Below, one piece after another: positions 3,868-20,248 of a stretch of 20,248 nt of DNA (positions are counted from its first letter, which is position 1; every line of letters begins with the position of its first letter). Made by a program: the position numbers and the translations under genes. The notes beneath the pieces are model-generated. The model was not told the origin of the DNA, did no database searches, and was given only the letters and a program-made list of their open reading frames with translations. The DNA is from a virus, in the IMG/VR virus record IMGVR_UViG_3300024261_000193, positions 1-20,248 of that record, one strand, 5' to 3'.

Positions 3868-4153
3868 CAATATATTCCAGTTTTGTCTCTAATCTCACTA
3901 TATCTTGATGTATCTCACTAATCTCCTTATTTAATGATGCCCTAGAACTAGCTGATGTTGGTGATTGGATTATAGTGCCATCTGGTGAAATTAGTCTGGA
4001 TAGTAGCAGTCTATGCTCCACTATCTCTTTGTGCATTTCTTCTATATTAGAATACGCGAATGACATTAGTGTGCTTAATCCCGATAATGCAACTCCTAGA
4101 ATTATTGGCACTAGGTTATCTAACTTTATCATTTTGCTCATATCTTTAATCAT
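3854..4153 (-). CDS. single-pass membrane protein with coiled coil (99 aa)
   Basis: The ATG shares its A with the purM TAA (TAATG at 4151-4155), with GGGGA just upstream. Residues 13-34 form one transmembrane helix (LVPIILGVALSGLSTLMSFAY). Residues 35-55 and 73-95 are heptad-like charged helices predicted to form a coiled coil, separated by a Ser/Thr-rich linker. This layout (N-terminal anchor, soluble coiled coil) is common among phage lysis-cluster and tail-associated small proteins; I cannot name a family. The stop TGA (3854-3856) is followed in frame by Sel1-repeat sequence. Confidence 0.65.
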   Translation of the reverse strand: MIKDMSKMIKLDNLVPIILGVALSGLSTLMSFAYSNIEEMHKEIVEHRLLLSRLISPDGTIIQSPTSASSRASLNKEISEIHQDIVRLETKLEYIDGHK

Positions 4154-5145
4154 TAATTATCCCCTAGTTTATATTCTTCACACACTTCCTTTTCCTTAAA
4201 CACATACGGGTCTGCGTCACCGAAATATATATCTTGTCCATTTACTACTACATTAGGTCTATCGTTTTCTACCACTTTACCAATAACCTTTGGATTAGAT
4301 ACCATTGCATCTAGTGCTTTATCAGAATCCTCTGGCCTCACTATCACCATAAGACCTATGCCACAATTAAATGTTGTGTATAGTTCTTGATGAGTGAATT
4401 TTGTTTCTAGTAATTCCCATGTCCTATTAGAAGATTCGTTATATATCTCATACTGGACATTCTTGGGGATTCGTTCAAGATTCCTAAATCCACCACCAGT
4501 TATATTAGCAATAGCACTAACATTTTTAACTCTTGCTAATAGTGTCATTATATCTTTATTGTATATCTTAGTAGCTGTGAGGGTTTCTGGTAAAATCAGT
4601 TCTGGTATTCTCTCACTAATAGCAGTCCAACCATTTGCATGGACACCACTAGATTCTAATCCAATAATCACATCACCCGGCTCTACTCTAGTACCGTCAA
4701 TGAGTCTATCCTTTTGGACAGTACCCATTATAGAGCCAGAGATATGGAAATTAGTTTGTTGGAGTATTTCAGTCTCACCACCAGATAATAGTGTGAATGA
4801 TTTTTTACAATACTCTAAAATACCCTCTATTACTTGAGGGATTATATATGCATCACTATCTGTTGATGTGATATGATTCTGAAATGATATCGGATTAGCA
4901 CCAACACATAGGATGTCGTTGAAATTCATGGCAAAACAATCACGTCCAATGTCACTATACATCTTATATTTGATAAGATGTTTTATCTTTGATCCTACTC
5001 CATCTGTACAATGGGCAATATAGTTCTGATTTGTGTCAATCACACTAGCGAAATAGTTAGGTGTTCCAACAGTTTTCACTAGTGTATTGTGAAGATTTGA
5101 TTTTTCTATTACATCAATCACACCACTTGTTACATAATCAAGCAT
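4153..5145 (-). CDS. purM: AIR synthetase (phage PurM)
   Basis: Phosphoribosylformylglycinamidine cyclo-ligase (EC 6.3.3.1) closes the imidazole ring of FGAM to AIR using ATP. At 330 residues it is near bacterial length. Recognisable blocks are TDGVGSK (47-53), GRDCFAMNFNDILCVGANP (67-85, ATP/phosphate-binding dimer core), GGETE (122-126), PGDVIIGLESSGVHANGW (156-173), NITGGGFRNLERIP in the middle, and NCGIGLMVIV near the C-terminus. It starts 4 nt after a 44-aa ORF, with GGAG upstream, and its stop overlaps the next start. Such purine genes are known auxiliary metabolic genes of cyanophage and related marine T4-like phages. Here the gene sits inside a tail-gene run, so late expression is possible. 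Confidence 0.95.
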   Translation of the reverse strand: MLDYVTSGVIDVIEKSNLHNTLVKTVGTPNYFASVIDTNQNYIAHCTDGVGSKIKHLIKYKMYSDIGRDCFAMNFNDILCVGANPISFQNHITSTDSDAYIIPQVIEGILEYCKKSFTLLSGGETEILQQTNFHISGSIMGTVQKDRLIDGTRVEPGDVIIGLESSGVHANGWTAISERIPELILPETLTATKIYNKDIMTLLARVKNVSAIANITGGGFRNLERIPKNVQYEIYNESSNRTWELLETKFTHQELYTTFNCGIGLMVIVRPEDSDKALDAMVSNPKVIGKVVENDRPNVVVNGQDIYFGDADPYVFKEKEVCEEYKLGDN

Positions 5146-16715: not shown

Positions 16716-17162
16716 ATGAACAAATACCCTAGAGTTGGAAAATATAAGGTAAGAAACAAAGAGAAATATGTGGGAAATCTCCATGAATGTGAACATAGGT
16801 CACGCTGGGAGCTCATCTATATGAAGTACTTAGACAGTAACCCTAATGTCATTGAATGGGGCTCTGAGACTGTCATAATACCCTATTATCACCCAATAGA
16901 CAAGCGTTATAGGCGTTATTTAGTTGATTTCTATGTCAAGGTAGTAACTCGCTCAGGGATGACTAAGAAGTATATCATAGAGATTAAACCATATAGTCAA
17001 TGTTTCCCACCTAAGAAACCCAAAAGACAGACTGTTAGCTATAAGAATAAAATCAAAGCTTATGTAATGAATCAAGCAAAATGGAAAGCAGCACAGAAAT
17101 ATGCTGAGAAAAGGGATTGGGAATTTGTAGTCCTTACAGAAAAAGAACTGGGAATAAAATAA
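16716..17162 (+). CDS. gp4-like head completion nuclease
   Basis: In T4, gp4 (gp50/65) is a head-completion protein with an endonuclease fold that acts before tail joining. This 148-aa protein is of matching length. Residues 28-45 (HRSRWELIYMKYLDSNPNV), 50-75 (SETVIIPYYHPIDKRYRRYLVDFYV) and 86-92 (YIIEIKP) form a restriction-like nuclease core, with probable catalytic Glu32, Asp71, Glu89 and Lys91. It is the only + strand gene between 1276 and the right edge, transcribed from the late box at 16675. The ribosome binding site is weak (AAGAG/GAGAT). Confidence 0.85.
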   Translation: MNKYPRVGKYKVRNKEKYVGNLHECEHRSRWELIYMKYLDSNPNVIEWGSETVIIPYYHPIDKRYRRYLVDFYVKVVTRSGMTKKYIIEIKPYSQCFPPKKPKRQTVSYKNKIKAYVMNQAKWKAAQKYAEKRDWEFVVLTEKELGIK

Positions 17163-17275: not shown

Positions 17276-18154
17276 TTACTGCTCAGCTAATTTCTTAAAA
17301 TACTCAAGGGTATCTTCAGAAGTTGATTCAGCTGAATCAACAGATGCAATTGGATCAGCAGTACTCTCTTCAATAGTTTCACTATAATCACTGCCTGTAC
17401 TAGAAGCAGTAACCGTTTTGAAACGTGCTTCCAACTCTTGATAACTCTTAAAGTTCTCTGGAGCTAGAATACCTTGAAGTGAATGCTGTTGTTTCCAAAC
17501 ATCCTCACACTTAGCATCGTCGCCGTCAAACAATCCAGATGGTGAAGCAAACTCTGACTTATCATAATTTGCATATCCTTCTACTTGACGGATTTTGAGT
17601 TTAAAGTTAGCACCAGACCAGAAATCAAACGGGTTCATTGGCTCTTCATCTTTAAACTCTGGATTCATAACACTTTCGATTTTCTCGAAAATCTTCTTAC
17701 CATACCTAAACAAAAATACTTTACCTTCATTCTGTGCATTTGTTGAATCTTCAAGTACAAGAATATTGGAATAGTAACTTAGCTTACGCTTTCGATCTCT
17801 TGCAATATTCTTATCAGACTCAATACCAGAATTCCACAAAGTAGTATTTGCCTTTGATACAGGATCATCACTTCCACTTGGAGCATCTGCTCTTGGTGTA
17901 GTCAATGAGTTTTCAATATACCAACCACCTGGCCCCTTAAAACCATGCGACCACATACGAACCCACGGCACATCTTCATTTGCAGCTGCAGGGAGAAAAC
18001 GGATAACAGCATAACCATTACCTGTTTTATCTCTTTCACACTTCCAGATTCGTTCATCTTCATAAGATGGTTTCTCTGATAGCTTCTCTACTTGTTTTGT
18101 TAATGACTGCAGGTTATTCATTCGGTTGTTCTTTAAATCTTTAAAACTAGACAT
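17276..18154 (-). CDS. single-stranded DNA-binding protein gp32-like
   Basis: T4 gp32 coats ssDNA cooperatively during replication, recombination and repair. This 292-aa protein has an N-terminal basic cooperativity region (about 1-20), the core with IWKCERDKTGNGYAVIRFLPA, the SHGFKGPGGWYIENSLTT block, DPVSKANTTLWNSG and NPFDFWSGANFKLKIRQVEGY, then an acidic Ser/Glu/Asp-rich C-terminal tail (about 255-292) of the type that binds partner proteins. The Cys-rich zinc subdomain of T4 gp32 is absent; the corresponding stretch (TPRADAPSGSDDP) has no Cys, as I recall for marine relatives. AAGGAG precedes the ATG. It follows the gp33-like gene. Confidence 0.9.
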   Translation of the reverse strand: MSSFKDLKNNRMNNLQSLTKQVEKLSEKPSYEDERIWKCERDKTGNGYAVIRFLPAAANEDVPWVRMWSHGFKGPGGWYIENSLTTPRADAPSGSDDPVSKANTTLWNSGIESDKNIARDRKRKLSYYSNILVLEDSTNAQNEGKVFLFRYGKKIFEKIESVMNPEFKDEEPMNPFDFWSGANFKLKIRQVEGYANYDKSEFASPSGLFDGDDAKCEDVWKQQHSLQGILAPENFKSYQELEARFKTVTASSTGSDYSETIEESTADPIASVDSAESTSEDTLEYFKKLAEQ

Positions 18155-18214: not shown

Positions 18215-18424
18215 TTACAAAGGTAATTTTGTAACTTGTTTCTTCATCATATTCAAGTCGTTAGCTTCTGCTTCAAGTTTATCTTTGATAGACCTATTTA
18301 GAAGCTTTGCAACCATTTCAATCTCACCATCCACATCGTCAGCATACATAATAATAGCTTCCATGTATGAAATCTTCTTATCTCTAACAAGTTTTTCTAT
18401 GGTAGTATTAACATCTATGCTCAT
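18215..18424 (-). CDS. gp33-like late-transcription coactivator
   Basis: The 69-residue protein is helical: MSIDVNTTIEKLVRDKKISYMEAI, then IEMVAKLLNRSIKDKLEAEANDLNMM and a KLPL C-terminus. That layout resembles the T4 gp33-type coactivator of marine T4-like phages, which bridges RNA polymerase to the sliding clamp at TATAAATA promoters. I give moderate certainty because the similarity is from memory. Support comes from the two TATAAATA boxes nearby and the gp32 neighbour. Its ATG overlaps the clpP-like TGA (ATGA), so the two are coupled. Confidence 0.6.
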   Translation of the reverse strand: MSIDVNTTIEKLVRDKKISYMEAIIMYADDVDGEIEMVAKLLNRSIKDKLEAEANDLNMMKKQVTKLPL

Positions 18425-18975
18425 TTGAACTCCTTAATCTTATCACAAATACCAAGTTTCTTTGCTTCCTTTGCAGACATCCAAACATCTGTAGCTGGAA
18501 GTAAATACTCCCTGATCTTTTTCTCACTCATACCAGTACACTTTTTGTAATGGTTCATCATCCTTTCAGAAGTTAGTTCAAATTCTTTTGTTTGAGCTAT
18601 GAGTTCATGTTCTTTACCCCATGCACCCCAACTCCATTGATGAGACATAATAGAGGTATTAGGAGTCAATAGTCTATGACCCTTAGTACCATTAATAAAC
18701 ATCATAAAACCTGCTGATGAGATTTGTCCCAATCCAACTGTATGAACGGGAAACGGACATCCATTCATAACATCAATTACAGCGAACGCAGCATTCAAGT
18801 CTCCGCCGGGAGAATTAATTACTATCTGTAAACATTTAGGTCTAGGTCTCTGCCAACTCTTAGTTAACATAAAAGAAATAAGTTCTTTACAAGTTTCTTG
18901 ACTTACTTCTTCCATGAAAAGGTACACACCCTTTTCTTCTGGAGAGGCGGGGCCCTTCTTTTCTTTTTCAGACAT
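18421..18975 (-). CDS. clpP: ClpP-like ATP-dependent protease subunit
   Basis: ClpP forms tetradecameric proteolytic chambers fed by ClpX/ClpA. This 184-residue protein has the catalytic triad in canonical contexts: Ser87 in GQISSAG, His112 in MSHQWSWG, and Asp163 in TDVWMSAKEA. INSPGGD (54-60) is the substrate-binding strand and loop, and KEAKKLGICDKI the C-terminal helix. I choose ATG 18975 (MSEKEKKG), with GGGGG 5 nt upstream. Longer frames from 19014 and 18987 overlap the preceding hydrolase gene. No Clp ATPase is seen in the window. Roles could include prohead or tail processing, or degradation of tmRNA-tagged peptides (see tmRNA at 20155-20248). Confidence 0.9.
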   Translation of the reverse strand: MSEKEKKGPASPEEKGVYLFMEEVSQETCKELISFMLTKSWQRPRPKCLQIVINSPGGDLNAAFAVIDVMNGCPFPVHTVGLGQISSAGFMMFINGTKGHRLLTPNTSIMSHQWSWGAWGKEHELIAQTKEFELTSERMMNHYKKCTGMSEKKIREYLLPATDVWMSAKEAKKLGICDKIKEFK

Positions 18976-18994
18976 TTGTTCCCCCATTGTTAAG

Positions 18995-19504
18995 TTAATA
19001 TCTATAAGGATCAATATAGAAAACGTGATCTCCTATTATTGCAACCTTTAACATTTTACGGTTCCAATAAGGATCAACATCATTTCTATGGTAATGGGTT
19101 GCACCATTTAGAAAATCATTAACCTTCCATCGTTCACCGTAATTTTTAATATGAGCTCCTGGCTGTTGTAGCATTGCAGTTGCAATTACCTTTGATACTT
19201 TCCATGCAATTTTATCTTTTGGTCTATCAGATTTACCATCACAAAACCAAGAGAAATGACATTTGTTTCTAACAACCTTTCCATTTCTATATCTTGCTTG
19301 TTTCACTACTTTACAAATAGAGTTTGGAAATCTTCTACTCTTCACTCTATTTATAGTTACAAGTGCAACTGCAATCTGACCTTTAGTAATTTGATCTCTA
19401 GCTTCAAAATAAATGTTCTGAGCCAAACAAGTAAGTTCTTCATTTGAAACTTTCGTAAATCCACTTAATATTAAAAATGAAAATATGAGTATGAATGTTT
19501 TCAT
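18995..19504 (-). CDS. SleB-type cell wall hydrolase with signal peptide
   Basis: The protein belongs to the SleB/Hydrolase_2 family (spore-cortex-lytic type), which cleaves peptidoglycan glycan strands. ELTCLAQNIYFEARDQITKGQIAVA and VTINRVKSRRFPNSICKVV match the family signature, with catalytic Glu in YFEAR (Glu34 from the ATG at 19504). GATHYH and a C-terminal DHVFY complete the domain. Residues 1-20 (MKTFILIFSFLILSGFTKVS) form a signal peptide or anchor, implying export. ATG 19504 lies just after the U-rich tail of a terminator and has no clear ribosome binding site. A longer frame from ATG 19531 begins inside the terminator stem and would add MGNHLPYFI, spoiling the signal peptide. Probably a lysis or DNA-injection enzyme. 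Confidence 0.8.
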   Translation of the reverse strand: MKTFILIFSFLILSGFTKVSNEELTCLAQNIYFEARDQITKGQIAVALVTINRVKSRRFPNSICKVVKQARYRNGKVVRNKCHFSWFCDGKSDRPKDKIAWKVSKVIATAMLQQPGAHIKNYGERWKVNDFLNGATHYHRNDVDPYWNRKMLKVAIIGDHVFYIDPYRY

Positions 19505-19537
19505 AATAAAATAGGGGAGATGGTTGCCCATCCCCCC
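19502..19537 (-). terminator. Rho-independent terminator after the 71-aa gene
   Basis: On the - strand GGGGGGATGG-GCAA-CCATCTCCCC forms a 10-bp stem with one G-U pair and a GNRA-type tetraloop (19537-19514), followed by TATTTTATTATG. It closes the 71-aa gene; the hydrolase ATG begins in the tail. Confidence 0.8.
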
Positions 19538-19552
19538 ATGATTAGTTAAAGA

Positions 19553-19768
19553 CTAAACACCCCAATGAGAGTTTAGTGCTTTACGACAAGCAAAGACAGC
19601 CTTTGCTCCGCCATCAAGATCACAATCCTTGAAAGCAGTTTGTCCAGTAGCAGGTGAAGTGTAAATCTCTACCCAACGAGGCAATCCAGTTACGTCTGCT
19701 TCTGCTCGGGTGATTTTACGAGCATTCTTCATACCTACTTTTGGTTGACCAACAGTTGTGTTACGCAT
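19553..19768 (-). CDS. small unidentified protein, own transcription unit (71 aa)
   Basis: The 71-residue product MRNTTVGQPKVGMKNARKIT... is basic at its N-terminus with a compact Gly/Ala-rich C-terminal half (TGQTAFKDCDLDGGAKAVFACRKALNSHWGV). I do not recognise it. It has its own extended -10 promoter, a 5' hairpin, AGGAG 9 nt before the ATG and a strong terminator, so it is likely abundantly expressed, perhaps early. It stops at TAG 19553-19555. Two Cys residues suggest possible metal or disulfide chemistry. Confidence 0.6.
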   Translation of the reverse strand: MRNTTVGQPKVGMKNARKITRAEADVTGLPRWVEIYTSPATGQTAFKDCDLDGGAKAVFACRKALNSHWGV

Positions 19769-19881: not shown

Positions 19882-19956
19882 TGGAGCGGGTGGCGAGGCT
19901 CGAACTCGCGACATTCACGTTGGCAACGTGAAGCTCTACCACTGAGCTACACCCGC
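19882..19956 (-). tRNA. tRNA-Gly (anticodon GCC)
   Basis: On the - strand the 75-nt sequence begins GCGGGTG and ends CACCCGC-T-CCA, a 7-bp acceptor with encoded CCA and U73. The D-loop region TAGCTCAGTGGTAGAGC, anticodon stem-loop TCACG-TTGCCAA-CGTGA and T-arm with GTTCGAG are all canonical. The anticodon is GCC, reading GGC/GGU. Confidence 0.95.
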
Positions 19957-20068: not shown

Positions 20069-20145
20069 TGGCTCCGGCGGTAGGGTACGATCCTACAACA
20101 ACTCGATTAACAGTCGAGTGCGCTACCAATTGCGCCCTCGCCGGA
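20069..20145 (-). tRNA. tRNA-Asn (anticodon GTT)
   Basis: The 77-nt - strand gene has acceptor TCCGGCG/CGCCGGA, discriminator G and encoded CCA, D-arm GGCGCAATTGGTAGCGC and anticodon stem-loop CTCGA-CTGTTAA-TCGAG (anticodon GTT). The T-stem is GTAGG/CCTAC with loop ATCGTAC. Canonical loops read TTCGANN; here positions 54 and 58 are A and T, swapped relative to the universal T54-A58 pair. All other stems are intact. Confidence 0.9.
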
Positions 20146-20154
20146 ATAATAGGC

Positions 20155-20248
20155 GGTAGTTTTTCTGTTGCTAGGAAAACTACCAAACCCCGCTACTTAG
20201 TCAAAGACTACGCAGCAATTGCATACGAATAATCGTTAGCATTTGTGA
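20155..20248 (-). ncRNA. ssrA: tmRNA (ssrA), tag-coding 3' part, truncated by window edge
   Basis: On the - strand GCT AAC GAT TAT TCG TAT GCA ATT GCT GCG TAG (20240-20208) encodes ANDYSYAIAA-stop, the length, AND start and hydrophobic -AIAA end of a tmRNA degradation tag. The last codons and stop lie in a stem GCTGCGTAGTC-TTT-GACTAAGTAGC (20216-20192, 10 of 11 pairs), as in the P5 helix of tmRNAs. A further 9-bp hairpin follows (20184-20155). tRNA-Asn starts 10 nt beyond (20145), so no 3' tRNA-like half can follow, as in a one-piece gene. A permuted two-piece tmRNA, as in alphaproteobacteria, is implied; its acceptor half would lie beyond 20248. No CDS explains this frame. Confidence 0.75.

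Follow-up and report, generated by a model that had tools for sequence, protein, structure and literature searches.

A T4-like aquatic myovirus very probably carries a permuted two-piece tmRNA gene upstream of its own ClpP gene

Results

Genes and features at the contig end

The window analysed here is the entire 20,248-base viral record. Toward its end the minus strand carries, in downstream order, the 3′ part of what is almost certainly a tmRNA gene, two tRNAs, a 71-aa protein, an endolysin, a ClpP-family peptidase (~1.1 kb downstream of the tmRNA), a gp33-like protein and gp32 (Table 1). The phage is a T4-like myovirus, with T4-type genes in the window for the baseplate hub and wedge, tail tube, tape measure, gp2, gp32, endolysin and PAAR protein, and the nearest annotated proteins to its gp32 are those of cyanophages and Melnitz (~51–53% identity). 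The 71-aa protein had no PHROG or Pfam match. The 69-aa protein presumably occupies the position of the T4 late-transcription coactivator gp33, an assignment made by position and by visual resemblance to Melnitz gene 90. Elsewhere in the window, a protein with a TnsA-like N-terminal endonuclease domain (16716–17162, plus strand; PF08722, E 2e-19) is encoded on the opposite strand among structural genes and is conserved in related phages. The auxiliary metabolic genes purC and purM (2235–2951 and 4153–5145, minus strand) and a small cyclic-nucleotide-binding domain protein (1451–1807) were also found.

Table 1. Features in the tmRNA–gp32 region of the window
Feature	Position	Strand	Evidence
Permuted (two-piece) tmRNA, 3′ part, very probable; cut by contig end	20152..20248	-	cmscan alpha_tmRNA; whole gene in L005, L008
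Tag frame ANDYSYAIAA*, resume codon GCT, stop TAG	20208..20240	-	Sequence; ARAGORN, same tag in L002, L004, L006
P5-like hairpin containing the stop codon, UGCUGC-G-UAGUC-UUU-GACUA-A-GUAGCG	20191..20217	-	Fold
3′-terminal hairpin, conserved loop CCUaGcAACAGAA	20151..20190	-	Fold and covariation, 22 distinct stems
tRNA-Asn(GUU), directly after tmRNA	20069..20145	-	ARAGORN, Rfam
tRNA-Gly(GCC)	19882..19956	-	ARAGORN, Rfam
71-aa protein	19553..19768	-	Conserved in the window's tmRNA clade, 79–100% identical in relatives
Cell-wall hydrolase / endolysin	18995..19531	-	phrog_938, E 9.6e-20
ClpP-family serine peptidase	18421..19014	-	PF00574, E 1.8e-32; alignment A1; PDB ClpP matches; synteny
69-aa putative gp33-like protein	18215..18424	-	Synteny
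gp32-like single-strand DNA-binding protein	17276..18154	-	phrog_224, E 4e-109

From position 20248 the minus strand reads TCACAAAT and then GCTAACGATTATTCGTATGCAATTGCTGCGTAG, which encodes ANDYSYAIAA and a stop (20240–20208; GCT AAC GAT TAT TCG TAT GCA ATT GCT GCG TAG). The stop codon lies within a stem, UAGUC(UUU)GACUA inside GCUGC/GUAGC, and the gene is closed by a second stem, GGUAGUUUU...AAAACUACC. The hallmarks of the coding half of a two-piece tmRNA are thus present: an Ala resume codon, an Ala-Ala end, a stop, P5 and a 3′ hairpin. At a relaxed cmscan threshold, positions 224–355 of the 355-position alpha_tmRNA model, including its exact 3′ end, were aligned with 20248–20152 as a 5′-truncated match (30.6 bits, E 3.2e-7). 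The score of this truncated sequence is below the cutoff of 50 (L005, 77.7 bits), and that of RF04321 tmRNA_permuted (18.9 bits, E 0.086) is likewise below gathering, because the upstream half is missing. Neither ARAGORN nor Rfam at its gathering threshold called a tmRNA in the window; only tRNA-Asn and tRNA-Gly were found, as expected given a truncated gene. The contig end sits 8 nt before the tag, leaving the T-arm, the acceptor 3′ strand and CCA outside the window; an acceptor half would lie past 20248. The original prediction, made from the letters alone, had read the frame as a phage tmRNA tag with its stop in a P5-like stem and the coding part immediately followed by tRNA-Asn, and all three observations held.

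The fold of the 99-nt stretch has an energy of -33.7 kcal/mol (z = -4.8), and none of 200 shuffles was equally stable. A tag followed by a hairpin with loop CCUNGNAACAGAA occurs in more than 160 loci (a few contigs counted twice). The 3′ stem occurred in 22 different versions; most of its positions show compensatory changes, and a position has up to five standard pair types. The paired fraction was 0.94, versus 0.71 (maximum 0.76) when the two sides were dealt at random, in a test that takes no account of relatedness among loci. Even so, a single position with five pair types speaks for a real structure. Since the stem covaries as RNA, the tag frame does not belong to a longer protein gene; had it done so, this would have spoken against the original reading. 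In three contigs a second copy of the 3′ hairpin (38–51 nt, 95–98% identical) lies ~300 nt downstream of the first (L064:7732/8040, L040:4073/4375, L121:8538/8840); one small conserved ORF (MSKTPFEIRMNLLEMAKDL...) precedes it in each, with no second tag.

The complete gene in related phages

With a degenerate DNA pattern of the tag, eight other IMG/VR contigs were retrieved. Seven of them (L002–L008) gave full-length matches to RF04321 (84–110 bits, cutoff 47), and the eighth, L009, starts just before the tag. ARAGORN called a permuted tmRNA with the tag ANDYSYAIAA in L002, L004 and L006, for which the betaproteobacterial model, not the alphaproteobacterial one, scored best. Two contigs represent the same phage species as the window, L008 (99.65% identity over 8.3 kb) and L005 (99.4% over 3.9 kb), and both contain the gene in full, the T-arm, acceptor strand, CCA and D-arm preceding the tag. 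The order in L005 is P2 strand, T-arm, acceptor CACCUCC, ACCA, spacer, acceptor GGGGGUG, D-arm, P2 partner and tag. The permuted arrangement that had been proposed as probable is supported by these matches and calls, and the acceptor half it implied (T-arm, CCA, acceptor stem) lies upstream of the tag in the relatives, within ~220 nt. Since the window is without this half, the completeness of its own copy is deduced from the same-species contigs.

The acceptor strands of L005 (GGGGGUG/CACCUCC) form G3:U70, the alanine identity pair, which occurs in the 7-bp acceptor stem (GGGGG../..CCUCC) of L002, L004–L006 and L008, a region outside the window. Odd T-loops at first suggested decay, but that of L005, GGCAGUA, agrees with the tmRNA consensus of alphaproteobacteria (GGCgGUA). 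The tRNA-Asn of L005 (9229–9310), L007 and L008 has an extra palindrome of ~15–18 nt between the T-arm and the acceptor strand (CCGCTCCGGCGGTAGCTACCGCCGG); that of the window is a normal tRNA-Asn without it. We conclude that a T4-like aquatic myovirus almost certainly has a circularly permuted two-piece tmRNA gene, of which 20248–20152 on the minus strand is the 3′ end.

A swapped tRNA-like half and an HNH endonuclease gene

Upstream of the tmRNA, L005 and L008 share 99.98% identity over 5,032 bp, and from the tag onward they do not differ over 3,382 nt. Between these stretches, L008 has ~550 extra bases relative to L005, which encode an HNH protein of 187 aa (phrog_655 homing endonuclease, E 3e-13), and the tRNA-like halves of the two contigs share only 70% identity. 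They part 47 nt ahead of the tag, at a breakpoint just after P2, the pairing of which is kept by compensatory change (UGCUG/CAGCA versus GUCGU/ACGAC). Endonuclease-like ORFs abut the tmRNA also in L003, L109, L217 and L249 (5 of 141 distinct upstream ORFs, L008 included). These HNH-type genes end at the first tmRNA bases (L008:5036–5599, plus strand; L003:3046–3732, minus strand; likewise L109, L217 and L249), and the ORF of L217 has NUMOD-like repeats. Judged from the sequences, HNH homing with co-conversion would be the natural reading of both the insertion and the swapped half. The link between endonuclease and half swap is not strict, because L003 combines an endonuclease with an L005-type half. 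Only 39 nt separate the end of the window from the point at which L005 and L008 diverge, which suggests that the cut at 20248 is due to an assembly fork.

Phage ClpP and its association with the tmRNA

The triad of the ClpP-family peptidase (Ser92-His117-Asp168 in alignment A1 numbering) was invariant in 22 homologues. A profile search with A1 found solved ClpP structures (to E 1e-23), with matches mostly starting at ~residue 30 or later and the N-terminal part outside the alignment. T4-like phages are known to use a gp21-type protease for head maturation, which makes the role in the PHROG label, head maturation protease, seem less likely for this protein.

The gene order tmRNA, lysin, ClpP, gp33-like, gp32 recurs widely. 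When ClpP-seeded viral loci with at least 3 kb upstream were screened, a permuted tmRNA was present in 37 of 40 (36 within 3 kb), versus 16 of 48 ClpP-negative gp32-seeded loci of equal upstream length, a contrast that is overstated because the screen overlooked some tmRNAs in the gp32 set (4 missed in 18 contigs re-examined by covariance model). The ClpP alignment itself was built from tmRNA phages. Phosso and Synechococcus phage BUCT-ZZ01, the two complete isolate genomes whose ClpP is closest to that of the window, each have a permuted tmRNA too, unlinked to ClpP (~235 kb and ~41 kb away, respectively). On a tree of gp32, used as the T4-like phage marker, ClpP changes only twice, with two ClpP lineages, and a sign test of the ClpP–tmRNA association was therefore without power. 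Ten ClpP-positive fragments with at least 1.5 kb upstream had no tmRNA, as confirmed by covariance-model search, and no phage ClpX or ClpA was seen. We regard the association as suggestive, not proven. In the open-access literature we found no description of a tmRNA paired with a phage ClpP and no paper on a phage-encoded ClpP, the latter also being absent from the titles and abstracts of the papers listed on tmRNA and homing endonucleases.

Distribution of the tag and of two-piece tmRNAs in phages

The pattern ANDYxxAIAA, strict or relaxed, was not found in any of 84,980 bacterial and archaeal species genomes (contigs of at least 3 kb), and the scan thus gave no pointer to a host; a tag scan of the same kind does recover the tag in viral contigs. 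The group of the window tag comprises ANDYSYAIAA, ANDYDLAIAA and similar sequences, and ANDYxxAIAA is an aquatic-phage tag type. The tag had originally been thought unusual, which is true with respect to the species genomes but not to aquatic phages, where it recurs. A scan for the 3′ hairpin retrieved at least 120 contigs of viruses, and almost all of these have AND...AA tags. RF04321 also matches HTVC008M, Mosig, Mesorhizobium phage Cp1R7A-A1, Phosso and BUCT-ZZ01; the match in Pelagibacter phage HTVC008M (NC_020484:145161–145370, 90.6 bits) is a full permuted tmRNA with the tag ANFNEYALAA. Two-piece tmRNA is common in aquatic T4-like phage contigs.

A two-piece ssrA has already been published in phage Melnitz, together with a survey of 18,146 phage genomes, of which 402 had a tmRNA and 53 a two-piece one; these 53, of 133 unique structures, included 50 from marine or aquatic samples (PMC9004378). 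Phage two-piece tmRNAs being published and widespread, the window gene adds to a known type. That phage tmRNAs are uncommon, as first supposed, fits this genome count but not the aquatic T4-like phages, given the number of viral contigs recovered here. In a DNA similarity comparison with characterised phages, only tRNA-Gly and other tRNA stretches matched, and the L005 tmRNA matched none.

Discussion

The tmRNAs of the Bxz1 group and of phage G are not known to be permuted. These one-piece genes, carried by mycobacteriophages and a Bacillus phage unrelated to the phage studied here, are likewise virus-borne and encode a tag (PMC4131195). The two-piece ssrA genes of Melnitz, a phage of Methylophilales, and of the pelagimyophages Mosig and HTVC008M share the permuted order and belong to T4-like aquatic myoviruses (Kyanoviridae) (PMC9004378), and that of Melnitz is, like the window tmRNA, upstream of a gp33-like gene and gp32. 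Their tags differ from that of the window (ANDNYVPVDYALAA, GEDNFALAA and ANFNEYALAA, respectively), their genomes have no homologue of the window ClpP, and the Melnitz ssrA is reported with a glutamine riboswitch, whereas Rfam gave no riboswitch match in the window. The alphaproteobacterial two-piece tmRNA (Rfam RF01849; RF04321, PMC11915505) has the same gene order, the CCuaGcAACAGAA-loop 3′ hairpin, the Ala-Asn-Asp tag start and Ala-Ala end, and the noncanonical T-loop GGCaGUA seen in L005; in contrast, the window gene is virus-borne and has a short 10-aa tag ending AIAA. Homing endonucleases in tmRNA group I introns (PMC11915505) are another case of endonuclease–tmRNA association, but the HNH genes of L008, L003 and others are free-standing, intronless and upstream of the tRNA-like half.

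Beyond the sequence, gene order, structural conservation and neighbours described above, we infer how the phage tmRNA would be processed and charged and how it would tag proteins for degradation, largely by analogy with known two-piece tmRNAs. A single precursor would comprise the acceptor piece (P2 strand, T-arm, acceptor strand, CCA), a short spacer and the coding piece (acceptor 5′ strand, D-arm, P2 partner, tag frame ANDYSYAIAA, terminal hairpins). Host tRNA-processing enzymes would excise the spacer, and host AlaRS would charge the tmRNA via G3:U70. The charged tmRNA, with host SmpB, would enter stalled ribosomes, add the phage tag and free the ribosomes. Clp proteases would recognise the phage tag with its Ala-Ala end and degrade the protein that bears it, perhaps through the phage ClpP encoded downstream. 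Most likely the RNA works like any other two-piece tmRNA, relying on SmpB, AlaRS and processing enzymes of the host, and rescues ribosomes in infection.

It is probable, though well short of certain, that the tmRNA chiefly frees ribosomes late in infection, from decaying host mRNA and broken messages, while ClpP does something else, such as clearance of host proteins. The gene is near late-regulator and replication genes, as is the Melnitz ssrA, many phages have a tmRNA without ClpP, and such a function agrees with the ordinary role of tmRNA. It leaves unexplained, however, why a phage-specific tag is retained and why ClpP occurs almost solely with tmRNA. A single tag-and-degrade module, in which a phage-specific degron is handled preferentially by particles containing the phage ClpP, would fit the conserved gene order, the frequencies in ClpP-seeded and ClpP-negative loci, the presence of both genes in Phosso and BUCT-ZZ01 though unlinked, the intact ClpP triad and the absence of the tag type from the species genomes. 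We nevertheless consider this module unlikely: the two changes on the gp32 tree leave the sign test powerless, many tmRNA-positive phages are without ClpP, some ClpP-positive fragments are without a tmRNA even by covariance model, screen false negatives inflate the contrast, and no phage ClpX or ClpA was seen. A functional link between tag and ClpP is accordingly put forward as a hypothesis. A functionless remnant of which only the 3′ part is left, for example from an ssrA integration site, is very improbable: the window is without the acceptor half and ssrA is a common integration site, fragments of which are reported in prophages (background cited in PMC9004378), but L005 and L008 of the same species have the entire gene, the tag frame and the stems have stayed intact, with covariation from lineage to lineage, and an assembly fork would explain the cut.

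The broadest proposal, that aquatic T4-like phages have their own tag-and-destroy system, a permuted tmRNA degron with a matching ClpP, and that the tmRNA locus is an HNH homing site swapping the tRNA-like half as a unit, is in our judgement quite unlikely as a whole. The window is a case in which a permuted tmRNA gene was correctly readable from a truncated contig end. The adjacency of tmRNA and ClpP, together with tags absent from the bacterial genomes searched, makes the question of why phages carry tmRNA testable, and sharpens it: whether tagged proteins are redirected to a phage protease, or the tmRNA serves ribosome rescue alone.
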